Assembly: GCA_030694365.1 (NCBI GenBank)
Contig: JAUXYM010000018.1
Span: forward strand, 1-38,254
DNA length: 38,254 nt
Direction of reading: 5' to 3'
From: Nevskia sp.
GTDB taxonomy: Bacteria; Pseudomonadota; Gammaproteobacteria; Nevskiales; Nevskiaceae
The translations under genes and the position numbers were made by a program. Under the pieces are notes generated by a model that saw nothing but the letters and a program-made list of their open reading frames with translations, ran no database searches and was not told the origin of the DNA. This document shows, piece after piece, positions 13,872-28,955 of the stretch. The stretch's first letter is position 1; the number at the start of each line of letters is the position of its first letter.

Positions 13872-15770
13872 ATGCCGTTCAGGTTTTTCGCCGTCTCGTG
13901 GTGGCTTGCCGTCAGCCTCGTGGCGGGTTGCGGCGGTGGTGGCGGTGCAAACCCGACATCGTTACCGGCCGGTGGTGCGCCGGTAGAGCCAGCGGCCCCG
14001 GCACCAGCACCCGCGCCGACACCGATTCCCGCACCGATTCCAGCGCCCGCGCCGCCACCGACTCCTGCCCCGGAACCGACGCCGGTGCCAGAAGTGATTC
14101 CAGCGCCAGCGCCCGCCCCAGCCCCAGCCCCAGCCCCAGCCCCAGCCCCAGCCCCAGCCCCGACACCGACCCCGGCTCCTGCGCCGCTGCCCCCGCCGGT
14201 TTTGCCGATTCCACCGGTGCCTGCGGTGTCGGCCGCCGATGCCGTGCGTCTGCTCGAACAGGCCACATTCGGCCCGAACTTGGCGGCGGTCGCTGATCTG
14301 CAGGCCAGTTCCATAGAAAGCTGGATCGACCGCCAGCTGGCGTTGCCGGCGACCGGCTATGCCGGCTATCCGGTGGTCGATGCGGCGCAGAGTGTCGGCT
14401 GTCCGGCGACCGCCAGCGCGACCTGCGATCGCGACAACTATTCGCTGTTCCCGATCCAGACCCGCTTCTTCCGCAATGCCATGACCGGCCCGGACCAGTT
14501 GCGCCAGCGGGTGGCGTTTGCGCTGTCGCAGATCTTCGTCGTCTCTGGCAACGAAGTGGCAGTGACCTACGCGATGGCCGGCTATCAGCAGATGCTGCTG
14601 GACAGCGCTTTCGGCAGCTATCGGCAATTGCTGGAGCGGGTCACGGTCAGCCCGGTGATGGGGCGCTATCTGGACATGGCCAACAACGATCGGCCGAACC
14701 CGGCGAGCGGCGTCGAGCCGAACGAGAACTACGCGCGCGAAGTGCTGCAACTGTTCTCGCTCGGCGTCTACGCGCTGAACCCGGACGGCAGCCCGATGCT
14801 GGACGGCCAGGGCCGGACGCTGCCGAGCTACGACCAGGACACGGTCGAAGGCTTCGCCCACGTGTTCACAGGCTGGACTTATCCGCCGAAGCCGGGCCGC
14901 GCGATCCACTGGAACAGCCCGCGCCATTTCGATGGCCCGATGGTGGCGGTGCCAGACTGGCACGACACCGGGGCCAAGCAACTGCTCAACGGTGTGGTGC
15001 TGCCGGCGGGCCAGAACCAGGATCAGGACCTCGCCCAGGCGCTGGACAACATCGCCAGCCATCCGAATGTCGGGCCGTTCATCGGCAAGCAACTGATCCA
15101 GCATCTGGTGACCAGCAACCCGAGCCCGGCCTACGTCGCCCGGATCAGTGCGGTGTTCGATCACGACAGCAGCGGCCAGCGCGGCAATCTCGGTGCGGTG
15201 GTGCGGGCGATCCTGCTCGACCCGGAGGCGCGCGGCGACCGGAAGACCGATCCGGACTACGGCAAGCTGCGCGAGCCCGGCCTGTTCCTGGCCAACATGA
15301 TGCGCGGCATCGGTGGCAGCAGTGACGGCGTCTACCTGCGTGCACGCAGCGCGCTGATGGGCCAGAACCTCTATCAGGCGCCGTCGGTGTTCAGCTTTTA
15401 TCCGTCCGACTACCCGATCCAGGGCACCGAGCTGGTCGGGCCGAGCTTCGGCCTCTACACCGCCGGCACGGCGTTCGAGCGGATCAACCTGCTGGCCCGC
15501 TTGCTGACCGGGCCGGTGACGGCCGATTCGACGGTGACCGGTGCCATCGGCACTCAGCTCGACATCAGCGCCTGGCAAGCCTTGGCCAGTGATTCCTCAA
15601 CGCTGCTCGACCACATCGATCGGCTGTTCTTCCACGGTGCGATGTCGTTCGCGTCGCGCCTCAACATCCAGACCGCGCTGAGCACGATCCCCGCCACCGA
15701 CCCCGGGTCGCGCGCACGCGCTGCGCTCTATCTGGCGCTGAGCTCGGCGCAGTACCAGCTTGCCCAATGA
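13872..15770 (+). CDS. DUF1800-domain lipoprotein
   Basis: A 632-residue protein. The N-terminus has a lipobox (SLVAGC, Cys20) followed by a Gly run, so it is probably a lipoprotein. Residues about 37-125 are a Pro/Ala/Thr linker containing an uninterrupted Ala-Pro run encoded by a hexanucleotide repeat. The remainder matches the DUF1800 pattern: AVRLLEQATFGP near the start, LRQRVAFALSQIFVVS, ANENYAREV-like PNENYAREVLQLFSLG, VFTGWTYPP and a C-terminal LSSAQYQLAQ. DUF1800 proteins are exported and almost always encoded beside a DUF1501 protein, as here. The biochemical role is not established. The next gene starts 12 bases downstream, so the two form an operon. Confidence 0.9.
   Translation: MPFRFFAVSWWLAVSLVAGCGGGGGANPTSLPAGGAPVEPAAPAPAPAPTPIPAPIPAPAPPPTPAPEPTPVPEVIPAPAPAPAPAPAPAPAPAPAPTPTPAPAPLPPPVLPIPPVPAVSAADAVRLLEQATFGPNLAAVADLQASSIESWIDRQLALPATGYAGYPVVDAAQSVGCPATASATCDRDNYSLFPIQTRFFRNAMTGPDQLRQRVAFALSQIFVVSGNEVAVTYAMAGYQQMLLDSAFGSYRQLLERVTVSPVMGRYLDMANNDRPNPASGVEPNENYAREVLQLFSLGVYALNPDGSPMLDGQGRTLPSYDQDTVEGFAHVFTGWTYPPKPGRAIHWNSPRHFDGPMVAVPDWHDTGAKQLLNGVVLPAGQNQDQDLAQALDNIASHPNVGPFIGKQLIQHLVTSNPSPAYVARISAVFDHDSSGQRGNLGAVVRAILLDPEARGDRKTDPDYGKLREPGLFLANMMRGIGGSSDGVYLRARSALMGQNLYQAPSVFSFYPSDYPIQGTELVGPSFGLYTAGTAFERINLLARLLTGPVTADSTVTGAIGTQLDISAWQALASDSSTLLDHIDRLFFHGAMSFASRLNIQTALSTIPATDPGSRARAALYLALSSAQYQLAQ
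14116..14162 (+). repeat. In-frame CCCCAG hexanucleotide repeat
   Basis: About 7-8 uninterrupted copies of a 6-bp unit encode alternating Ala-Pro in the DUF1800 protein linker. Because the unit is a multiple of three, slippage would change linker length without breaking the frame. Confidence 0.9.
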
Positions 15771-15782
15771 CCTGAGCCGCAA

Positions 15783-17177
15783 ATGAGCCCTTCCATGCAG
15801 ACCCCGATCAATCACACGCGCCGCAAGCTCCTTTCCGGTCTCGGCAGCGGCCTGCTGCTCAATACGCTGCCGAGTTTCCCTGTGCAGGCGCAGACCTTCG
15901 GCGATTACAAGGCGCTGGTCTGCGTGTTCCTGCTCGGCGGCAACGACGGCAACAACCTGATCGTGCCCCACGACACGGCTGGCTACGGCAAGTACTCGGC
16001 GATCCGCGGTGATTACACGCGCAGCACCGGCGCCATCGGCCTGCCGCAGTCGGAGCTGCTGGCCTTGCCGCCGATCACTGGCAATGCCGCGTTCGGTGCC
16101 CATCCGGCGCTCGGTGAATTGCAGCAGGTGTGGAACGCCGGCGATCTGGCCGTACTGTTCAATGTCGGCCCGCTGGCCCGGCCGCTGACCAAGGCCGGCT
16201 ACGGCAATCGCGCGCTGACGCCGGACAACCTGTTTTCGCATGCCGATCAGCAAAGCCAGTGGCAATCCGCCGTCAGCCAGGGCATTTCGCGGACCGGCTG
16301 GGGCGGTCGGCTGGCCGATGCGGTGCGTTCAGCCAACGGTGCGTCATCGGTGCCGCCGCTGATCGCCTGGGGTTGCAATGATCTGTTCGCGATCGGCAAT
16401 TCGACCATGTCGCTGTCGGTGCCATCGTCGGGCAGCTTCGGGCTGAGCAACTTCGGCGGCAGCTATCGCAGCACTCTGTCGAACTCGATGAACCAATTGC
16501 TGCAGACCGATCGCAGCAACCGGCTGCGCGCCTCGGCGCAGGACACGGTCAGCGCGGCGCTGACCAGCAGCGGCGCGCTGAGCCCGATCCTCAGCGGCAC
16601 TTCGTCATCGATCAACGGTTTGTTCCCCAGCCAGGTCACCGGCCAGGCCACCGGCATCGCCCAGCAGCTGCTGCAGACCGCCCGGATGATCGAAGCGCGC
16701 AACACGCTGGGGGTATCGCGGCAGATTTTCTATGTCGCGCTCGGCGGCTTCGATACCCACAACAACCAGATCGAGACGCAAGCCGCGCTGCTCGGCGAAC
16801 TGAGCCCGGCACTGAAGGCCTTCCAGGATGCGATGGCGCAACTCGGCCTCGCCGATCAGGTGACCACCTTCACGCTGTCCGATTTCGGCCGCACCCTGAA
16901 GCCGGCCTCCGGCGGCGGCAGCGATCACGCCTGGGGCAACCATCATCTGATCATGGGCGGTGCCGTGCGCGGGCAGCGCTTCTACGGGCAGTTCCCCGAG
17001 CACGCACTCGGTGGCCCGGACGACGTCAGCAGCGAAGGCCGCTGGCTGCCGACCACTTCGGTCGACCAGTACGGTGCCACCCTGGCGCGCTGGTTCGGCG
17101 CGTCGGAAGCCGATCTGGCGACGATCTTCCCGAGCCTGCAGCAGTTTCCGACCACCGATCTGGGCTTTCTTGGCTGA
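15783..17177 (+). CDS. DUF1501-domain exported protein
   Basis: A 464-residue protein of the DUF1501 family (alkaline-phosphatase-like superfamily). The N-terminus has a twin-arginine type signal (HTRRKLLSGLGSGLL) ending near VQAQ, so export is probably through Tat. Family motifs include CVFLLGGNDGNNLIVPHD near residues 46-63, ALGGFDTHNNQ around 319-329, TLSDFGRTLKP around 363-373 and SDHAWGNHHLIMGG just after. The His/Asp pattern suggests metal binding, but no reaction is established. It follows the DUF1800 lipoprotein gene by 12 bases; these pairs are typically coexpressed. A second in-frame ATG at 15795 (MQTPIN) is an alternative start that keeps the Tat signal. Confidence 0.9.
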   Translation: MSPSMQTPINHTRRKLLSGLGSGLLLNTLPSFPVQAQTFGDYKALVCVFLLGGNDGNNLIVPHDTAGYGKYSAIRGDYTRSTGAIGLPQSELLALPPITGNAAFGAHPALGELQQVWNAGDLAVLFNVGPLARPLTKAGYGNRALTPDNLFSHADQQSQWQSAVSQGISRTGWGGRLADAVRSANGASSVPPLIAWGCNDLFAIGNSTMSLSVPSSGSFGLSNFGGSYRSTLSNSMNQLLQTDRSNRLRASAQDTVSAALTSSGALSPILSGTSSSINGLFPSQVTGQATGIAQQLLQTARMIEARNTLGVSRQIFYVALGGFDTHNNQIETQAALLGELSPALKAFQDAMAQLGLADQVTTFTLSDFGRTLKPASGGGSDHAWGNHHLIMGGAVRGQRFYGQFPEHALGGPDDVSSEGRWLPTTSVDQYGATLARWFGASEADLATIFPSLQQFPTTDLGFLG

Positions 17178-17349: not shown

Positions 17350-18630
17350 TCAGGCTTCGATGATCGCCGTCACGCTCATGCCGCCGGCAGTGCAGATCGA
17401 GATCAGGCCGCGACCGCCGCCGTTCTCTGAAATGATCTTCGCGAGGGTGGCGACGATGCGCGCGCCGGTCGCCGCGAACGGATGGCCGACACCGAGCGAG
17501 GAGCCGCGAATGTTCATCCGCGAGCGGTCGATTTCGCCCAGCGGCTTGTCGAGGCCCAGACGTTCCTTGCAGAACTTCGGATCGTTCCAGGCCTTCAGGG
17601 TACACAGCACCTGGGCGGCGAAGGCTTCGTGGATTTCGTAGAAATCGAAGTCCTGCAGCTTCAATCCCGTACGCGCCAGCATCCGCGGCACAGCAAACGC
17701 CGGGGCGATCAGCAAGCCGTCCTTGCGACCGGAGGCGAAGTCGACGGCGGCGGTTTCATAAGCCGTGAGATACGCCAGCGGCTTGTGGCCATGCGCCCGG
17801 GCCCAGTCTTCCGAGGCCAGCAGCACGGCAGCTGCGCCATCGGTCAGCGGCGTCGAGTTGCCGGCGGTCAGCGTGCCGTTGAGCTTGTCGAACGCGGGCT
17901 TCAGGGTCGCCAGCTTGGCCAGCGTGGTGTCGCCGCGCAGATTGTTGTCGCGGGACAGTCCCGCGTAGGGCACCACCAGATCGCCGAAGAAACCGGAGTC
18001 GTAGGCGAGCGCGGCCTTCTGATGCGATTCCAGCGCCAACTGGTCCTGCTCTTCGCGCGGGATGCCCCATTGCTTGGCCATCATTTCGCAGTGCGCACCC
18101 ATGCTCAGGCGGGTGCGCGGCTCGTTGTTGCCAGGAATCAGCGGCACCAGATGTGCCGGCCGGAACTTGGCAAAGGCTTTCAGGCGCGCGGCGGTGGTCT
18201 TGGCGCGATTGGCTTCGAGCAGGATCTTGCGCAGGCCTTCGCCAACGCCGATCGGGGCATCCGATGCGGTATCGACACCGGCGCCGATGCCCGATTCGAT
18301 CTGCCCGAGCGCGATCTTCGAGCCGACCGTCATCACCGTTTCCAGGCTGGTGCCGCAGGCCTGCTGCAGGTCATAGGCCGGGGTCTCCGCGGACAGGCCG
18401 GAGGACAGCACGCATTCGCGGGTCAGATTGAAATCCCGCGAGTGCTTGAGCACGGCACCGGCCGCGACTTCGCCCAGGCGTTCGCCGTGCAACTGGTACT
18501 TGTCGACCGTGGCTTTCAGCGCGGCGGTCAGCATGTCGCTGTTGCTGCGGGTGGCGTAGGCGCCGTTGGAGCGGGCGAACGGAATGCGCGCGCCCCCGAG
18601 GATGGCGACTTTGCGGCCGTAGGGTTTCAT
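17350..18630 (-). CDS. Acetyl-CoA acyltransferase / thiolase (FadI-like)
   Basis: A 426-residue thiolase. The nucleophile is Cys92 in QQACGTSLE. The remaining catalytic residues are His334 in HEAFAAQ, His383 in GHPFAATGAR and Cys413 in CTAGGMSV. Length and the N-terminal RKVAILGGARIPFARSNGAY resemble the FadI/trifunctional-beta type, which cleaves 3-ketoacyl-CoA in beta-oxidation. It is not beside a fadJ-type partner here. It lies downstream, in the same direction, of the alkane-oxidation remnant (120-base gap). A thiolase would suit fatty acids coming from alkanes, but this link is inference. All catalytic residues are intact, unlike the neighbouring locus. Confidence 0.92.
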   Translation of the reverse strand: MKPYGRKVAILGGARIPFARSNGAYATRSNSDMLTAALKATVDKYQLHGERLGEVAAGAVLKHSRDFNLTRECVLSSGLSAETPAYDLQQACGTSLETVMTVGSKIALGQIESGIGAGVDTASDAPIGVGEGLRKILLEANRAKTTAARLKAFAKFRPAHLVPLIPGNNEPRTRLSMGAHCEMMAKQWGIPREEQDQLALESHQKAALAYDSGFFGDLVVPYAGLSRDNNLRGDTTLAKLATLKPAFDKLNGTLTAGNSTPLTDGAAAVLLASEDWARAHGHKPLAYLTAYETAAVDFASGRKDGLLIAPAFAVPRMLARTGLKLQDFDFYEIHEAFAAQVLCTLKAWNDPKFCKERLGLDKPLGEIDRSRMNIRGSSLGVGHPFAATGARIVATLAKIISENGGGRGLISICTAGGMSVTAIIEA

Positions 18631-18749: not shown

Positions 18750-19634
18750 TTACTGAAATACGCTGCCGAACGTGCCGTCGCTCAAAGTGTGTTCCATCCA
18801 TTGCTTGCGCAGCACGAAGGTATCGAGCGGGAACAGCCAGCTGAACAGCGGCTTGGCGGTGAAGGCGTACTCGCGGTCGAGTTCGTCGGTGAAGCGCCAC
18901 TGGGCGCTGGCGACGGTGAATGGCTCGGGCCCGAATTCCAGTTGGTCCTCGAGGTGCGTCACCCGCAGCCAGCGTTGGCCGTCGTGGAACATGCGCATGT
19001 AGGCCGAGCCGCCGCTGGTCGAGATGCCGCAGATGCCGGACAGCGCCATGCCGTTGTCGAAGATCGGCCAGGCCAGGCGATAGTGCTGCAGTGCGTCCCA
19101 GTTGCGCGGGCCGGCGGCGATATCGCGGAAGCCCTTGCCGTTCAACTCCATCCGGGTGCCGCGGTGGATCAGATGGCCGCTGACGTTCGAGGTGCCCTCG
19201 AGATGGATGTGGGCAATCTCGCGAGCGAAGGAGCCTTCCTCGTCCTGAGTCATGGCGATGCAGTCTTCCATCGGCTGCAATTCATCCCAGACCAGGTCGA
19301 GCGAGAAATCCGGCGTCGCGAAGCTGATCCGGGTGCGCTGCAGCGGCACTTCGGCGCGGACGCGCATGCCGGCCAGTTCCAGACCATCGACCGGGCGGCT
19401 GGTCGTGTACGGCAAGTTCAGGTTGGTGCGGGTGAAGATCGGCAGGCCGTCCTTGAAGGCGATCAGCCAGGTGTTTGCCTCTGGCGCGTTTTCCAGCAGG
19501 CCGATGCGGATCAGCACGCCGGTGCGGGTCGCCGGGTCGTAGGCGTTGTAGTAGTAGCTCTGGCTCCAGCGCGGATTGCCGTTGCCGGAGATCAGGCCTT
19601 CGTACTGTGCGTAGTCGTGGTGCCGATGGCTCAT
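18750..19634 (-). CDS. Conserved protein, possibly lipocalin/AttH-like fold
   Basis: A 294-residue protein with no signal peptide or membrane segment, rich in aromatic residues and beta-strand patterns (RWSQSYYYNAYDP near the start, LVWDELQPMED in the middle, GGSAYMRMFHDGQRW later). The overall pattern recalls the CrtC/AttH-type lipocalin-like proteins often found in hydrophobic-substrate oxidation clusters, and I give that as a weak resemblance only. It is the last gene of the CYP153-type operon and starts 19 bases after the corrected end of the small gene upstream. It is open from end to end, in contrast to its neighbours. The function is unknown. Confidence 0.65.
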   Translation of the reverse strand: MSHRHHDYAQYEGLISGNGNPRWSQSYYYNAYDPATRTGVLIRIGLLENAPEANTWLIAFKDGLPIFTRTNLNLPYTTSRPVDGLELAGMRVRAEVPLQRTRISFATPDFSLDLVWDELQPMEDCIAMTQDEEGSFAREIAHIHLEGTSNVSGHLIHRGTRMELNGKGFRDIAAGPRNWDALQHYRLAWPIFDNGMALSGICGISTSGGSAYMRMFHDGQRWLRVTHLEDQLEFGPEPFTVASAQWRFTDELDREYAFTAKPLFSWLFPLDTFVLRKQWMEHTLSDGTFGSVFQ

Positions 19635-19653
19635 GTCGGGGGCTCGGTGCGGT

Positions 19654-19951
19654 TCAGGATGGTGACGCGGCCAGCAGCGCGCGGATCGGCGGTACGGCAG
19701 TCGGGTCGGCCTCCCAGCCCTGCGGAGTGACCAGGGCGGCTGCCGCGCATACGCTTGTCCGGCATGGTCGGATCGTTCGGCGAGATCAGCAGGTGATCGG
19801 CGTGCACTTCGAGCAGGGTGCCGACGAAGGGGAAATCGTCGAAGCGGTCGGGAATCCGGTAGCTGACCATATCGCCCGGTTTGAAGCTGACGGCGTCGAA
19901 ATTGAAGCTGAACGGGCAGGCGTCGCCGCCGGTCGTGCCAAGGTTCTGCAT
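19654..19951 (-). pseudogene. Small conserved protein of the CYP153-type operon, frameshifted
   Basis: The ATG at 19951 has a good AGGAG site. The first ~70 codons read sensibly (FKPGDMVSYRIPDRFDDFPF, then LLISPNDPTMPDKRMRG). Around 19735-19745 the sensible reading moves to another frame (AALVTPQGWEADPTAVPP) and ends at 19654, giving an expected product of about 98 residues. The total length is one base over a multiple of three, consistent with a single inserted base. I do not recognise the family. The gene lies between the GMC remnant and the lipocalin-like gene. A sequencing error could produce the same picture. Confidence 0.6.
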
Positions 19952-20055
19952 GTCGTTTCTCCTATTCGCGGGCCTGTCTCGGGCCTATTCGCGGACCTGG
20001 CGCGGTGCCGGTCGGCAAACGCCTCGCCGTGCTTTGCGGCGAGGTCGTGCTGGGT

Positions 20056-21660
20056 CTAGTTCAGGGGCTTGCCGAGAATCAGCTCGGCACCTTTCTCGGC
20101 AATCATCATCGCCGGGAAGTTGGTGTTGCCGCTGGTGATGTTCGGCATGATCTACGCGTCGATGACGCGCAGAGCATCGATGCCGCGCACGCGCAGCGAT
20201 GAGTCGACCACCGCCATCTCGTCCGAGCCCATCCTGCAACTGCCGACCGGGTGGTACAGCGAGTTGGCGTTGGCGCGGATGTAGGCGTTCAGGTCGCCGT
20301 CGGAATGGGCGGAGGTGCCGGGCGCGTACTCGCTGCCGCGAAAAGCCTCGTAGGCGCGCTGGGCAATGATTTCGCGGCTCAGCCGGATGCCGTCGTGCAG
20401 CACCCGCAGGTCATCGGGATCGGAGAAATATTGCGGATCGATGGCCGGTGCCTGGGTCGGATCGCTGGAGCGGATCTTCACCGTGCCGACGCTCCGTGGC
20501 TGGCTGCCGTTCATCACCGCCATGAAGCCTTCTTCCTGGATGATCTCGCGGCCGTGGTCGTTGTACATGATCGGCACTGAATAGATCTGCAGGTCCGGAT
20601 AGGCGAGTTCCGGCTGCGATTTCAGGTGCGCCGAGGCTTCCAGCGCGCTGACCACGGTCGGGCCGGAGCGGTTGATTGAAGTACTGGGCCAGCGGCTTCA
20701 CCACCGCCAGCGGCTTCAGCGTGCCGAGCAGCGAATACGGCTGCGTGCAGCGCTGCTTCACGGCGATGGCGATGTGATCGCGCATGTTGCGACCGACGCC
20801 GGGCAGGGCGTGGCGCACCGGGATCCCATGCGGACTGATGTCGCACGGATCGCCGATGCCGGACAGCTACAGCACCTGCACCGAGTTGATGACGCCGCCG
20901 GACAGGATCACTTCACGCGTCGCGCGCAGCGTGTGCAGGTGGCCGCCCTTCCGATATTCGATGCCGACCGCTTTGCTGCCTTCCAGCAGCACGCGAGTCG
21001 CCAGCGCGCCGGTGATCACCGTCAGGTTCGGCCGGTTCAGCACCGGGCGCAGGTAGCGCGCCGAAGCGCTGTGCCGTTCGCCCTTCGCGTAGTTGCCCTG
21101 CATCTGGGCAACCCCGAGCGGGCTGACTTCGTTGACGTCCTTGTTGAACGGATGGCCGGCCTGGATGCCGACTTCGATCCAGGCGCGGGAGGTCGGATTC
21201 ATGGTCGCAAGCGCGGGCATGCTGATCGAGATCGGCCCGCTGCGGCCGCGATACTTCGGGTCGCCGGCCGGGAAATCCTCGAGGCGTTTGAAGTAGGGCA
21301 GCAGCTGGTCATAGGACCAGCCGGCATTCCCGAGTGCCGCCCACTGGTCGTAGTCGCCTTGATTGCCGCGCGACACCACCATGCCGTTGATCGCACTGGA
21401 GCCGCCCAGCACCTTGCCGCGCGGGAAGTACATGCGCCGGCCGCCGAGCCCGGGCTGCGGCTCGGACTCGAAGTTCCAGTTGCCCTTGCCGGTTTTCATC
21501 AGCGCGAAAAAGCCGGCCGGCATCGCGTACAGGAAGCTCGAATCCCGGCCGCCGGCTTCGAGCAGGTCACCCGGTGGTTCGGATCCGCGCTCAGGCGGTT
21601 GGCAAGGACGCAACCGGCGGAGCCGGTGCCGACGATGATGAAATCTGCGTTAGCGGTCAT
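20056..21660 (-). pseudogene. GMC-family alcohol/choline dehydrogenase remnant (AlkJ/BetA type)
   Basis: A complete GMC flavoprotein can be followed through frames. It starts [20 protein letters not shown] (FAD Rossmann motif), continues through [10 protein letters not shown] and PRGKVLGGSSAINGMV, and ends with the C-terminal NSLYHPVGSCRMG and SGNTNFPAMM signatures. There are four lesions: a frameshift near 21565 (one C missing from a CCC run), an amber codon at 20867-20869 where VLQLSGIGDP would need Gln, a frameshift near 20676, and an amber codon at 20152-20154 in the final VIDA-IMP motif. Intact, it would oxidise alcohols to aldehydes, the second step after terminal alkane hydroxylation. 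It starts 13 bases after the ferredoxin stop. Confidence 0.88.
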
Positions 21661-21673
21661 GAAAAGCGGTGGC

Positions 21674-21997
21674 TCAATGCTGGTCCGTCGGCATCCGCAG
21701 CACCAGGCCTTCGTGCTCATCCGCCAGCTCGATCTGGCAGGCCAGACGGCTGAACGGCGTCGAGCCATCGGTCAGGGCCAGCATTTCGGCTTCGATGCCG
21801 GCGCGGGCCGGGCCGATTCTTTCCAGCCAGTTCTGATCGACCCAGACATGGCAGTTGCCACAGTCGGCAACGCCGCCGCAGTCGCCATCGATGCCGGGAA
21901 TGCGGTGCTGCACGGCGGTCTGCATCGCGGAGCTGCGGCTGTCGGCGTCGAAGCAGTGCTCGGTGCCGATGGGCGTGATGTAGGTGATTTTCGGCAT
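21674..21997 (-). CDS. [2Fe-2S] ferredoxin, adrenodoxin type
   Basis: A 107-residue ferredoxin. The cluster ligands are Cys40, Cys46, Cys49 and Cys87 in the Cx5Cx2C...C spacing ([12 protein letters not shown], then LACQI), as in putidaredoxin/adrenodoxin proteins that pass electrons to bacterial class I P450s. It sits 26 bases after the CYP153-type gene and 13 bases before the GMC gene, so it is the electron donor of this operon. No ferredoxin reductase is present in the window. The coding frame and all ligands are intact. The ATG at 21997 has only a modest GAGAACG ribosome site. Confidence 0.92.
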
Positions 21998-22023
21998 GGT
22001 CGTTCTCGGGTTTGTTGGCAGGT

Positions 22024-23301
22024 TCAGGCGTGCAGGCGAACCTGCATCTCGACATAGCCGTGGATCAGGTTCGACGGCACGCGCACCGGTTCGCCGAGTA
22101 CTTCGATCCGCGAATAGCGCGTGAGCATCTCTTCCCACAGCACCTTGATCTGCATTTCGGCCAGACGATTGCCGAGGCAGCAGTGGATGCCGAAGCCGAA
22201 CGACAGGTGATGCCGGGCGCGCGGCCGGTCGACGATGAAATCCTGCGGCCGCTCGATGACCTCCTCGTCGCGATTGCCGGACAGGTACCGCATCACCACC
22301 TTGTCGCCCTTCTTGATCTGCTGGCAGCGGAACTCGACATCTTCGATCGCGGTGCGGCGCATGTGCGAGATCGGCGTCTGCCAGAGGATCACTTCGGGCA
22401 CCACGCTGGCCAGCAGCGAGGGATCGGCCTTGGCCTTCGCGAACTCGGCCGGATAGAGATGAGCGGCCATGGCGCTGCCGGACATCGAGCTGCGGGTGGT
22501 GTCGTTGCCGCCGACGATCAGCAGCACCAGCATGCCGAGGAAGTCGGTCGGGGTCATAGCCTGCATGGCCGGGGAATGCGCCAGCATCGAAATCAGGTCG
22601 GCCTTCGGCGGCAGCTTCTGGCGCTCGTCCCACAGGTTCTGGAAGTAGGCGAGGCAGTCCATCAGCTCGGCGGTGCGCTATTCCCAGGTATCGACCAGGC
22701 CGTAGCCCAGACGCGTGGTGACCATATCCGACCAGCGGGTCAGCTTGGCGCGGTCCGCAAACGGGAAATCGAGCAGCGTGGCCAGCATCATCGTGGTCAG
22801 CGGGATCGACACCGCTTCGACCCAGTTGAGGGTCTCGTTGACTGGCAGGCGGTCGAACAGATCCTTGGTGCGGCTGCGGATCAGGCTCTCGAATCGCAGC
22901 AGGTTGGCCGGGGCGACGATCGGGCTGACCGCCATGCGGTGCACGTCGTGCACCGGCGGGTCCATGCCGAGGAAATTCGGCATGTAGATACCGCCTTCAA
23001 CCGCGTTCAGCGTGGTGTCGTCGAGCACGAAGCTGCCGTTGCTGTGATCGGACGAGAACTGCTTGTGGTTGGTGTCGATCGCGACGATGTCGTGGAATTT
23101 GGTGATCGACCAGTACGGGCCGTAGAGGCTGGCCTTGCACCAATGCACCAAATGCACCGGGGCCTCGCGACGCAGGCGCACGAAGTACGGCTGCAGGGCC
23201 TCCTGCTGGTAGAGCGTAACGTCGCTGACATCGATTTCGTCCAACGGCGTCGAGCGGGCGCGTTCGGTATGGTCAAGGGGCGGCTGCACGGCTGCGTTCA
23301 T
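22024..23301 (-). pseudogene. CYP153-type alkane hydroxylase P450, interrupted by an amber codon
   Basis: A 425-codon reading from an ATG with an AGGAGA site resembles CYP153 terminal alkane hydroxylases: [24 protein letters not shown] (I-helix), ISHMRRTA, and the heme loop [16 protein letters not shown] with Cys375. An in-frame TAG at 22678-22680 falls where CYP153A proteins have Gln (EEQRMAEL against WE-stop-RTAEL), so CAG to TAG is likely. The K-helix ExxR has become EVIL, with Leu (CTC, 22384-22386) replacing the near-invariant Arg. The heme-loop position before the Cys ligand is Cys where CYP153A6 has Arg. CYP153 enzymes use a ferredoxin, which is encoded just downstream. Two independent inactivating changes argue for real decay. 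Confidence 0.88.
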
Positions 23302-23423
23302 CGGGCGTCTCCTGCGGGGCTGGCTGGATCTGTTGTTCGGAAGTGAGTTTGGGATGGGCGATCAAGCCCGTACCTGTACTTTCAGGCAGGCTGGCGGCTT
23401 GCCGGTTCGGCGAAGCTGCTGCA

Positions 23424-25731
23424 ATGTCTGAAGCGCTGCCCGCGCAGAGCCATGGCGAGCCACCGGCGTTCATCTTCAGGAGCCTGCGCACCCGGGCGCT
23501 GGAACGGTTGCTGACGGCGGAAGGACGGGCTGCGAATCGACATGCGGATCGACGCGCTGATCGACGCTCTCAAGCGGGCACCCGGGCCGCTGAGCCTGTT
23601 TCTCGACAACCTGCAGAGCTGCACCGATGCCGCGCTCGGCCGGCTGATCGACTGCCTGTGCTTCCACACGCGCGGCGACGTGGAACTGGTATTCAGCAGC
23701 AACCGCGAACTGCCGTTCGATGTTTCTCGCGCGCGGCTCGAAGGCCTGTTGTGGCCGATCACGGCGAGCGATCTCGGTTTCGATGCCGGTGAGGTCGCCG
23801 CGCTGCTGGGGCCACCGCTGTGCGCGGCGATCGGGGCCGAAGGTGTGGAGCAGGTCACGGCGCGCACCGAAGGCTGGCCGGCGGCGGTGCGGATGGCGCC
23901 GATCATTCTCAGCCAGGCCGAGCAGCCCAAGCTCGCGTGCAAGGACTTTTCCGGCTCGGATGAAGCGCTCGCGCAATTGCTGAACCGCCAGGTGCTGTCC
24001 GGCTTCACCGATGGTTTGCGCGAGTTCCTGTACTGCCTGGCGCAACTGCGCATCTTCAGCGTCGAGCTGTGCGTGCAGGCGATCGGCGGTGCCGATGTCA
24101 ATGCGCACCTGGCCTGCCTGATCGAGCGCAACGTGTTCGTCATTCCGCTCGACCAGACGCGCAGCCGCTATCGTCTGCACGGCCTGATCCGCGATCATCT
24201 GCGCCACGAGGCCGGGAGGCTGCTGAGCGCCGAGCGCCGTCAGGGTCTGCTGATCCGTGCCGCAGGCTGTTGCGAAAAGTCCGGTGACTGGCGCGATGCC
24301 GTCGACTACGCGCTGGCCTCGGGATCGAGCGGCACGGCGAGCCAGATCCTCGAACAGATTGCGCCGAGCTTCGTGCGCGATCGCGGCGACGTGCTGCAGT
24401 ACATTCGCTGGCTCGACGCGCTGCATACGCAAGGTCGGCAAGCCGGGCCGGAAGCCGAATACTGGTTCGCCTGGGCGCTGGCCTTCCATCGCCGCTATGA
24501 CGACGCGCGCAAGCACAGTGCCGCGCTCGCCAGCCGGGTGCAGCGCCTGCCTGCCGCCAGTCATGACCGCGATCTGCAACGCCGCATCGCCATCCTGCGG
24601 ACCTCGATCGACAGCCTGACCGATCACCTCGACGACGCCTTGGCGCGGTGCCAGCGACTGGCTGAAAGAAGCCGCCGAAGGCCGGGACGATGCTTTCAAC
24701 CGCACCACGGCGCACTGCATCGTCAGCGGCTATCACGCCAAAGCGGCATCGTCGGCACCATGGCGCTGGTCGCCGCCCGCGCGGCGGTGGGCATGGGCTT
24801 GAGCGAGGAGGCGAGGGTCTTGCTCGACGCCGGCCTGCGCGAATCGAGAACCCACGGTTTTCTAGAAGCGGCGGCCTGCGGGCTCGAAGCTGCCGTGCTG
24901 CTTGGGGACGGCGTCCAGCCGCTGGGCCTGCTGCGCGAGATCGCTGCTGCGTATCCGCCACGGTTGTCGCTGATGCTGTCCTGCTTCCTCGCCCGAAGGC
25001 TGGTCCGGCTCGGGCGGATCGAGGACGCCAAGGCCGAAGCGGCGAGGATCGGCATCACCATCGATGCCGCCGGCCGCCAGTCCCGAACCCGGCCGTCGCC
25101 CGGCATCGCGCTGAGCGAATCGCTGATCGCGGCAGTGCGCATCGAACTGCTGATCGCCAGCAACCGCCATCCGCAGGCGACTCTGCTGATCGCCGAGGAA
25201 CTGCGCCGCGCCAAAGCCGACGACTGCGCCGCGCGGCAGGTCGAACTGGCGCTGGACAGTGCCGCGATCGCCGTTCGTGCCGATCACCCGGCGCTCGCGG
25301 TCCGCCCTATCACGCGGGCGGTGACGCTGTCGGCGAGCCGCCGGATCGTCCGTCCGTTCGATGATCACATCGACACCTTGAGCCAGGTGATCGCCGCAAC
25401 CCGAGCCTCGGCCTGGGGTTTCGCGAGTGATGACGAGCGCCGCTTCTTCGCCGACTGTTGTCGCCGGCTGCCCGCTGCGGACAGCCAGGCACAGGCCCGG
25501 ATCGTCGCGCTGCATGAGGCGCCACGTTTGCTCGGCAATCCAACGCCGCGCGAACTGGAACTGCTCGGCTATATCGACGCCGGGCTGTCGAACCAGCAAC
25601 TCGCCGATCGCAGCGACGTGAGCTTGACCACGATCAAACGGCATCTGCACAACCTGTACGGCAAGCTCGGCGTGTCCAGCCGCTCGGCGGCGCTGGCCAA
25701 GGCGAGGGTGCTCAAGCTGCTGGCGCGCTAG
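23424..25731 (+). pseudogene. MalT/AlkS-type LuxR regulator remnant
   Basis: The remnant of a large ATP-binding LuxR-family activator. The C-terminus has a good helix-turn-helix (PTPRELELLGYIDAGLSNQQ, then VSLTTIKRHLHNLYGKLGV). The longest open frame begins at 23542, just before the Walker B-like LFLDNLQSC. The piece from the ATG at 23424 (FIFRSLRTRALERLLTAEGR) looks like the normal N-terminus in a different frame, so the segment holding Walker A (roughly 100 residues) is missing. Around 24655-24755 the sensible reading leaves the frame (WLKEAAEGRDDAFNRTTAHC in another frame) and returns, and the helical repeat region is short. AlkS of Pseudomonas, a MalT-type regulator, controls alkane genes. 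The divergent position here suggests the same role. Confidence 0.75.
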
Positions 25732-26710
25732 CGCTCGTCGGTGGTTGTCGCTGCACGGTTTCAACCGGACCCGCCGCCGGTACTGCGGTGACATAGACCA
25801 CCGCCAAGCCATCGCGATAAGGGGCCGACCAATGCTCATCCGCCGCCAGCGCGCCATCCAGCGGCGAGCCGTTGCGGATGATCACGGCGTTGATCCGATA
25901 GCGTGTCAGCAGCGCCTGCCAGCCGGCTTGCAGGCTGTCGATGCGCATGTAGTCGTCGAAGATCCGGTCACGATAGAGGTCGACGCGGCCGTCGATGAAC
26001 ACGGTCTGCTGCGGATGCAGGCTCTGGATCAGGAAGTCGCCCCAGCCGAAATCGTTGTACAGCCGGGTGCCGGGCGGCAGCTTCGCCAGATAGCGGCTGG
26101 CCAGTTCCGGATAGGGCAGGCGGCCGTCGGTGCGAGGGGCTTTTGTCGATTGCGACTGCGGCGGCGCAGCGATCAGCATACCGATCGACAAAGCCAGCAG
26201 CGGCAGCCACCACAGGCGGCGAGTCGCGCCACTGCCTGAACACCGCCAGCGGCTCAAAACCAGCGACAGCACCGCCAGCAGGAGCGAGGCGAGGATCTGT
26301 GGCCGCACGCCCCAGGTCGGCGCGGCGAACATCAGGAAGGCCAGCAGCAGGATCAGGCTCAAGCGCCGGCCGGCACCGTGCTCGCGCAGCAGCCGCCAGA
26401 CCAGAAGTGCCGTCGCCGCCTGCACCAGGCCGCACAGCAGCATCGGCCCGCCATAGCCCAGTCGCCGGTTCAGGCCTTGAATCGGCCATTGCTGCAGCCA
26501 TTCATGATCAAGCCAAGGCCGGCCTTGTGCGGTATGTGAAAACGGGTCGGTCTGCGGAATGCCGTTGGCAGCGATCCATTCGCCGGCTTTCAGATGTCAC
26601 CAGTAATCGACATCGCTCGGTGCCGCGATCACCAGGCAGCCGGCCAGCGCGATCAGCAGCAGGGTCAACAGCGTGTAGCCGTGCAGCGGCGGCGGTTTGG
26701 CGAAACTCAT
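25712..26710 (-). pseudogene. Polytopic membrane protein (glycosyltransferase-like family), interrupted
   Basis: Reading from the ATG at 26710 (MSFAKPPPLHGYTLL) gives a first membrane helix, then DVDYW followed by TGA at 26597-26599, then in the same frame LKAGEWIAANGIPQTDPFSH. Related proteins have a second aromatic residue here (DYWWHLKAG), so TGG to TGA is likely. The C-terminal part has the family block NDFGWGDFLIQSL and VFIDGRVDLYRD. The total of about 332 codons is short for this kind of protein and the middle holds few membrane helices, so an internal deletion is also likely. The 3' end overlaps the convergent regulator gene by 20 bases. The function is not known. Confidence 0.6.
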
Positions 26711-26945: not shown

Positions 26946-27236
26946 ATGAGCCTGCGTCCCTTGCATGACCGCGTCATCGTCAAGCGTCTCGAAGAAGAAA
27001 AGAAGTCCCTCGGCGGCATCATCATCCCGGATTCGGCTGCCGAAAAGCCGCTGAAGGCGGAAGTGGTTGCCGTCGGCCCGGGCAAGCGCAGCGACGACGG
27101 CAAGATCCACGCCGTCGACGTCAAGATCGGCGACACCATCCTGATCGGCAAGTACTCGGGTACCGAAGTGAAGGTCGACGGCAAGGATCTGGTGATCCTT
27201 CGCGAAGACGACATCCTTGCCGTGTTCGGCAAGTGA
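26946..27236 (+). CDS. groES: Co-chaperonin GroES
   Basis: A 96-residue GroES, the heptameric lid of the GroEL chaperonin in the cytoplasm. It starts [19 protein letters not shown]. The mobile loop is at about residues 17-33 ([13 protein letters not shown]), followed by VVAVGPGKR and the closing [11 protein letters not shown]. Length is standard. An AGGAG site precedes the ATG. It is followed after 78 bases by groEL, and a REP-like hairpin lies in that gap. Transcription is probably controlled by the CIRCE-like site upstream. Confidence 0.98.
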
Positions 27237-27242
27237 CCTTGA

Positions 27243-28955
<1,713 letters not shown>

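Follow-up and report, generated by a model that had tools for sequence, protein, structure and literature searches.

Evidence for a recently pseudogenised CYP153-type operon in a Nevskia draft genome

The DNA studied here is a 38,254-nucleotide contig of Nevskia sp. (JAUXYM010000018.1, contig C73 of its genome; hereafter the window), and it carries what is in all likelihood a recently pseudogenised CYP153-type operon. The operon runs on the minus strand from position 23301 in the order CYP153-type P450, 2Fe-2S ferredoxin, GMC oxidoreductase, a small gene, and a DUF7064/DUF7065 gene, and a divergent LuxR-type, MalT-like regulator lies on the plus strand, facing away from the P450 (Table 1). A first-pass annotation had proposed this arrangement, with the last gene called lipocalin-like, and all six genes were found where it had placed them. 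Its further claim, that at least four of the six carry inactivating lesions of several kinds, was also confirmed: stops, frameshifts, and deletions affect the P450, the GMC gene, and the regulator, and the last two genes of the operon have changed 3′ ends. The process is ordinary pseudogenisation, somewhat wider than the first reading had seen.

CYP153 systems carry out terminal hydroxylation with electrons supplied via a ferredoxin, and the alcohol is then oxidised. By analogy, in an intact form of the present locus the P450 and the ferredoxin would hydroxylate the end of what was presumably an alkane or a similar chain, the GMC enzyme would oxidise the resulting alcohol, and the ATP-dependent MalT-like regulator would turn the operon on. 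The regulator here has neither its P-loop nor an intact reading frame.

Lesions in the operon and its regulator

Lesions were mapped by frameshift-aware alignment of open proteins to the window DNA. The references were a Nevskia genome (G002) for the P450, the ferredoxin, the small gene, and the DUF7064 gene; two further genus members (G011 and G015) for the regulator; and, for the GMC gene, a locus (L057) in an alphaproteobacterial bog metagenome-assembled genome (MAG), Acetobacteraceae bog_937. Domains were assigned with Pfam and NCBIfam, structural relatives by similarity to PDB entries, and the comparison set comprised one genome per species. The host genome is an 89% complete draft of 3.08 Mb in 124 contigs, assigned to the genus Nevskia.

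The P450 is 88% identical to its G002 counterpart (368 of 418 residues), and apart from a lone TAG it reads in one frame. Its CYP153 kinship is supported by the open G002 orthologue, which matches CYP153A7 (PDB 3rwl, E 7e-178) and CYP153D17 (5h1z, E 4e-115). For a count of conserved sites, 149 positions were used whose conservation across 76 other CYP153-type loci is 97% or higher; the 76 are what remains of 80 loci after removal of four orthologue rows (L054, L055, L056, and L064), and they still include L057 and a Nevskia paralogue (L122). The window P450 departs from the consensus at 17 of the 149 sites. Twelve of these departures are common to G002 and G010; the other five, which are the substitutions given in Table 1, are absent from the orthologues. 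Beyond the same twelve, G011 has three departures and G015 has two, one of which they have in common.

Three of the five changes fall on residues that are invariant in 76 of 76 loci. In the ExxR motif and the haem-thiolate cysteine loop, R299 of ExxR is replaced by leucine, and the haem cysteine is retained but R367, the arginine directly before it, has become cysteine; the third change turns W331 into arginine. The first-pass annotation was thus correct in reporting that a key residue is lost. With three invariant residues altered, among them the ExxR arginine, the P450 would very probably be inactive even with readthrough of its stop.

The regulator, which is identical to that of G011 at 595 of 769 residues, carries three lesions, and the use of G015 as the reference gave the same three sites. 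First, a 72-residue deletion with a frameshift near 23532 has removed the P-loop stretch, which is present in G011 and G015; the G002 orthologue scores an AAA domain. Second, there is a +1 frameshift near 24640. Third, a 65-residue deletion is accompanied by a frameshift at 24740. The C-terminal LuxR-type helix-turn-helix is still present (PF00196, E 2.4e-11). Since the G002 orthologue reaches 191 bits compared to a cut-off of 537 for the NCBIfam MalT equivalog, the protein is described as MalT-like only and not as MalT.

The GMC gene aligns to its L057 counterpart with 345 of 530 residues identical (65%). Both the N-terminal and the C-terminal GMC domains are present, yet they do not lie in one open frame, as two frameshifts and two TAG stops separate the pieces. 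The damage to the last two genes is of another kind. The 12 terminal residues that the small gene has exchanged are conserved in G002 and almost fully in G010 and G012; the gene has no family in Pfam or NCBIfam. A stretch of about 75 bases after it (19660-19736, minus strand) is open in a different frame, perhaps the tail left by a gene now deleted, and when the peptide read there was compared with all loci of the comparison, no convincing source was found besides the window's own locus. Compared to G002, the DUF7064 gene is conserved up to its last residues and then has a different short end. Nucleotide alignment showed that this altered 3′ end runs into sequence found upstream of the thiolase gene in G011, the pattern expected of a deletion junction.

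The ferredoxin is the only operon gene that looks whole. It shares 90 of 107 residues with G002, carries no lesion, and combines an open frame with a Fer2 domain and four aligned cluster cysteines. The first-pass annotation had regarded both this gene and the terminal gene as intact; this holds for the ferredoxin but not for the terminal gene, whose product is shorter and differently ended.

Judged from the sequence, the decay is not confined to the six genes and extends into an adjoining membrane-protein gene between the regulator and groES. About 160 residues are unmatched in comparison with a protein of G013 that is only 33-35% identical and aligns poorly, so part of the gap may be divergence. 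No Pfam family was found for this gene, and the corresponding place holds only about 120 bases in G011 and G015 (L026 and L027). The flanking thiolase and groES genes, used as controls, showed zero lesions. The locus lies between thiolase and groES-groEL as it does in G011; in G015 the groES side is kept and the thiolase is located about 10 kb further away.

Table 1. Positions and condition of the operon, its regulator, and the adjoining genes in the window
Feature	Position	Strand	Condition and basis
CYP153-type operon and divergent regulator	18750-25731		P450, ferredoxin, GMC, small gene, and DUF7064/7065 gene on minus strand
CYP153-type P450 pseudogene	22027-23301	-	TAG at 22680-22678; P191L, R299L (ExxR), G319C, W331R, R367C (G002 numbering)
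2Fe-2S ferredoxin	21677-21997	-	Open frame, 84% identical to G002, cluster cysteines kept; PF00111 E 8.4e-5
GMC oxidoreductase pseudogene	20062-21651	-	Frameshifts near 21564 and 20677; TAGs at 20869-20867 and 20154-20152; Pfam GMC_oxred_N/C on pieces
Small conserved gene	19631-19951	-	First 72 codons conserved; relatives' last 12 residues replaced by 34 unrelated ones
DUF7064/DUF7065 gene, last of operon	18750-19634	-	294 amino acids compared to 307 in G002/G010; 3′ end changed; Pfam
Divergent MalT-like LuxR-family regulator pseudogene	23346-25731	+	Deletions and frameshifts
Membrane-protein pseudogene	25735-26710	-	Between regulator and groES; TGA at about 26597-26599; probable internal deletion
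Acetyl-CoA acyltransferase (thiolase)	17350-18630	-	Open flank, control gene; also after operon in G011
groES-groEL	26946-28955	+	Open flank, groES as control; same locus side in G011 and G015

Timing of the decay and selection

As the first-pass annotation had suggested, the lesions were dated by comparison with relatives, and this placed the decay late on the branch leading to the window. Codon models were applied to the orthologues, and omega (dN/dS) on the window branch was compared with the background, with uncorrected p-values. For the P450, omega was 0.102 compared to 0.091 (p=0.69, eight taxa) or 0.097 compared to 0.072 (p=0.30, six taxa). The corresponding values were 0.149 and 0.117 for the regulator (p=0.29), 0.134 and 0.072 for the ferredoxin (p=0.26), 0.165 and 0.095 for the small gene (p=0.49), and 0.098 and 0.062 for the DUF7064 gene (p=0.28). 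An omega of 1 on the window branch was rejected for the P450 (2dlnL 43.5, upper limit slightly over 0.16) and for the regulator (2dlnL 29.1). Since omega is low and neutrality is rejected, constraint held over most of the branch and the damage arrived late; our own arithmetic, which treats the branch as a mixture, suggests that decay took up a few percent of it.

The intact ferredoxin, perhaps together with the DUF7064/7065 gene, might have been kept by selection for another oxygenase. Its frame and cluster cysteines are intact and the point estimate of omega is well under 1, as expected of a retained gene, but the dead P450 also shows a low value, the decay being recent, and low omega is therefore no proof of retention. 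The dN/dS check that had been proposed for this gene gave a low omega but cannot separate "kept" from "not yet hit." Moreover, the regulator is broken, both surviving CYP153-type loci of the genome (described below) have ferredoxin matches of their own, and chance escape is likely: by our arithmetic, 10 lesions in about 6.7 kb would spare a 321-bp gene with a probability of about 0.6. Retention for another use is accordingly considered unlikely.

Sequencing error and recoding as alternatives

The apparent lesions could be consensus mistakes of a draft metagenome contig, an explanation to which the 124-contig state of the genome and the error-prone look of at least one MAG of the genus (G011) lend some substance. 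Apparent frame breaks were therefore counted with a reference-free parse based on codon usage and trained per genome. An initial penalty setting yielded no more than three breaks, since it made gene splitting less costly than read-through, and two further settings, a looser and a stricter one, were then used. With the looser setting, there were 10 breaks in the 8.05 kb at 18.7-26.75 kb, compared to 1 in the remaining 30.2 kb of the window and 109 in the 445.7 kb of host genome outside the region (including those 30.2 kb). Among the relatives, the same setting gave 51 in 220 kb for G002, 32 in 100 kb for G014, 18 in 100 kb for G015, and 91 in 97.4 kb for G011. The stricter setting gave 8 for the region, 0 for the rest of the window, 54 for the rest of the genome, 26 for G002, 22 for G014, 6 for G015, and 74 for G011. 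The 10 breaks in the region compare with 1.97 expected, and the Poisson tails of 4e-5 and 9e-6 apply to a region that had been picked for looking broken.

These counts speak against error as the cause: the rate elsewhere in the host genome is near that of G002, which is 100% complete in 10 contigs, and the rest of the window has a single break. In addition, errors do not typically remove 72 or 65 codons or replace invariant residues. Error is thus hardly credible as a general explanation. Family matches to aldehyde dehydrogenase and fatty-acid desaturase in six genomes contained no stops, a result that says little on frameshifts. In the looser parse, the sampled stretches of G011 (L138, L139, L198, L199, and L026) had about three to five times the breaks per kilobase of G002, G014, and G015, which suggests poor base quality of that assembly.

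Recoding, in which TAG would be read as an amino acid or the frameshifts would be programmed so that the proteins are made, was considered because all three stops inside the P450 and GMC genes are TAG. However, TAG terminates 3 of 20 long open reading frames (ORFs) listed for the window (not all 20 need be genes), the neighbouring membrane gene is broken by TGA, and the deletions, the frameshifts, and the loss of ExxR are beyond rescue. Stop recoding was rejected, as the stop usage of the window and the regulator deletions contradict it, and the probability left to recoding of either kind is vanishingly small.

Several observations weigh against recent pseudogenisation as set out here. All lesions are calls on the assembled contig sequence. 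Other 20-kb stretches are also busy in the looser parse (10 breaks in L179, 9 in L171, and 8 in L172, which holds a second broken regulator; at most 6 in the stricter parse). One of the references, G011, itself has the high number of apparent breaks given above and is a weaker reference for that reason, and the sole GMC reference is 65% identical and comes from another class. P191 is conserved in only 74 of the 76 loci, and both open P450 paralogues of the same genome differ there too. Finally, no operon gene has a window-branch omega significantly above background, and the open control thiolase itself has a raised omega (0.068 compared to 0.027, p=0.012, three taxa).

Open and decayed loci in relatives

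The C-terminal half of the P450 served as a query against 18 genus members. One of them proved to be the host genome; G010, G002, G011, and G015 gave open matches of 86-93%, G012 a match of 70%, and G014 a partial match of 88%, and 11 had none above 62%. The four open loci (L024-L027) resemble the window in having the same divergent regulator, P450, and ferredoxin; the small gene is matched in three of the four and the DUF7064/7065 gene in two. They differ in what follows the ferredoxin, which is a FadL-type porin (PF03349) in these four and in G014, whereas the window has the GMC gene there. FadL was found in 7 of the 18 genus members at E 1e-60, and no match was found in the host genome at that threshold.

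The closest GMC gene among those compared is 64-65% identical to the window pieces and lies in the P450-ferredoxin-GMC locus L057, compared to a best value of 53% in 60 other genomes of the genus, family, and order. The P450 and ferredoxin of L057 are 67% and 52% identical to those of G002, and a nearby DUF7064 gene is 69% identical. Unlike the window, L057 has open frames and its DUF7064 gene lies upstream; its 13-kb locus gave no regulator or small-gene match at E 1e-6. The GMC gene may have been either gained in the window lineage or lost in the others.

A second decaying copy of the operon was found in Nevskia nzgw585 (G014; L052/L064). It has no lesion in common with the window, and its FadL gene is still open. 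Only the end of its regulator is left, the body being missing, and its ferredoxin has lost 20 residues. Its P450 lacks the N-terminal part and, through a deletion at a short repeat, 35 residues surrounding the haem loop; it also carries a frameshift near the end and has lysine for the glutamate of ExxR (omega 0.194, p=0.0016). The decay in G014 is less secure because the coverage of its contig is 3.46. In the P450 tree, G014 falls with G002 and G010 and the window elsewhere (supports 0.79-0.98), whereas the tree of the short ferredoxin joins the window and G014 (support 0.70); because the two trees disagree, the branching order of the window and G014 is not firm.

Alkane oxidation in the host genome

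The first-pass annotation had taken the joint decay of enzyme and regulator as a sign that the whole trait was lost, and the lineage could indeed have given up alkane oxidation altogether, with this locus as one relic. An AlkB-like query, a G015 protein similar to the PDB alkane 1-monooxygenases 8sbb (E 1e-22) and 8f6t (E 6.5e-21), found no match in the 89% complete host genome, nor did it match a desaturase-family locus on contig C33; NCBIfam has no name for these AlkB-like proteins, and they were placed by PDB similarity instead. At 34% identity or more, matches were found in six of seven compared genus members: three in G002, six in G010, two in G011, five in G014 (one cut short), three in G015, and one in G012. 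One survey credits a Nevskia species with seven alkB/M copies (PMC9535955).

A second, paralogous MalT-like regulator is wrecked on contig C94 (L172:4147-6184), where 225 residues are missing and frameshifts and a TAG occur; the remainder is 90% identical to the G002 orthologue. In G011 and G015 the paralogous regulator adjoins an AlkB-like gene, whereas in G002 and G014 it does not. Where its P-loop region is expected, the C94 copy has low-complexity sequence with many Asp, Glu, Asn, and Ala residues. Aldehyde dehydrogenase matches also number fewer in the host genome (7) than in the compared genomes (11-19).

However, two further CYP153-type P450s on contigs C49 and C65, 48% and 53% identical to that of G002, are open and keep the ExxR and haem motifs. 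Ferredoxin matches lie close to both, and an 869-residue, distant MalT-like ORF (26% identical to the G002 regulator) adjoins the C65 gene. The incompleteness of the genome also counts against complete loss, as does G004 (2.8 Mb), whose single AlkB-like match is only 27% identical. Thus, the absence of an AlkB match and the second wrecked regulator support part of the earlier claim, while the open C49 and C65 genes with their motifs and nearby ferredoxin matches leave the trait reduced rather than demonstrably lost. Terminal hydroxylation may remain in the organism, and abandonment of the whole trait is doubtful. For the present locus, selection was lost late on the branch, probably by redundancy with the two open CYP153-type genes, in a lineage with no AlkB found and a second MalT-like regulator also broken.

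Other features of the window

Two neighbouring alginate-lyase-type genes (PF08787; 10053-11642 and 11995-13635, minus strand) are 70% identical over 529 residues and resemble the outcome of a tandem duplication; stretches preceding the lyase domain are repeated. A DUF1800 gene and a DUF1501 gene, often paired in bacteria, lie side by side at 13872-17177 on the plus strand, and both are open.

Comparison with known systems and implications

In Alcanivorax borkumensis, a putative operon, ABO_0200-0203, has the order ferredoxin-CYP153-AlkJ2-ferredoxin reductase, and thus groups P450, ferredoxin, and alcohol dehydrogenase genes as the window does (PMC6850023). The P450, dehydrogenase, and reductase proteins, though not the ferredoxin, are reported to have been detected on alkanes, whereas in the window the P450 and GMC genes are broken; no reductase was seen in the window operon. 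In a Sphingomonas with five CYP153 genes, the same paper notes two as possible pseudogenes (PMC6850023), so decay of CYP153 genes has been suspected before. Among the papers listed on CYP153 pseudogenes, CYP153 operons, and Nevskia and alkane, the titles and the beginnings of the abstracts contained no decayed CYP153 locus in Nevskia, and no paper was listed on alkane hydroxylase pseudogenization.

We tentatively raise the possibility, to which we give rather less than an even chance, that Nevskia is dismantling alkane oxidation repeatedly and in parallel. Different lesions would have led to separate losses of the CYP153 locus in two or more lineages. In the present lineage AlkB and two MalT-like regulators of alkane loci would also be gone or broken, with only two CYP153-type genes left, and a hydrocarbon lifestyle would be seen as it ends. 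Counts of CYP153 genes based on similarity would score both the host genome and G014 as having the locus, though it is dead. If parallel loss is not true, the case is one of routine pseudogenisation; if it is true, the genus would offer a comparative series of open, dying, and absent loci on what makes alkane oxidation dispensable.

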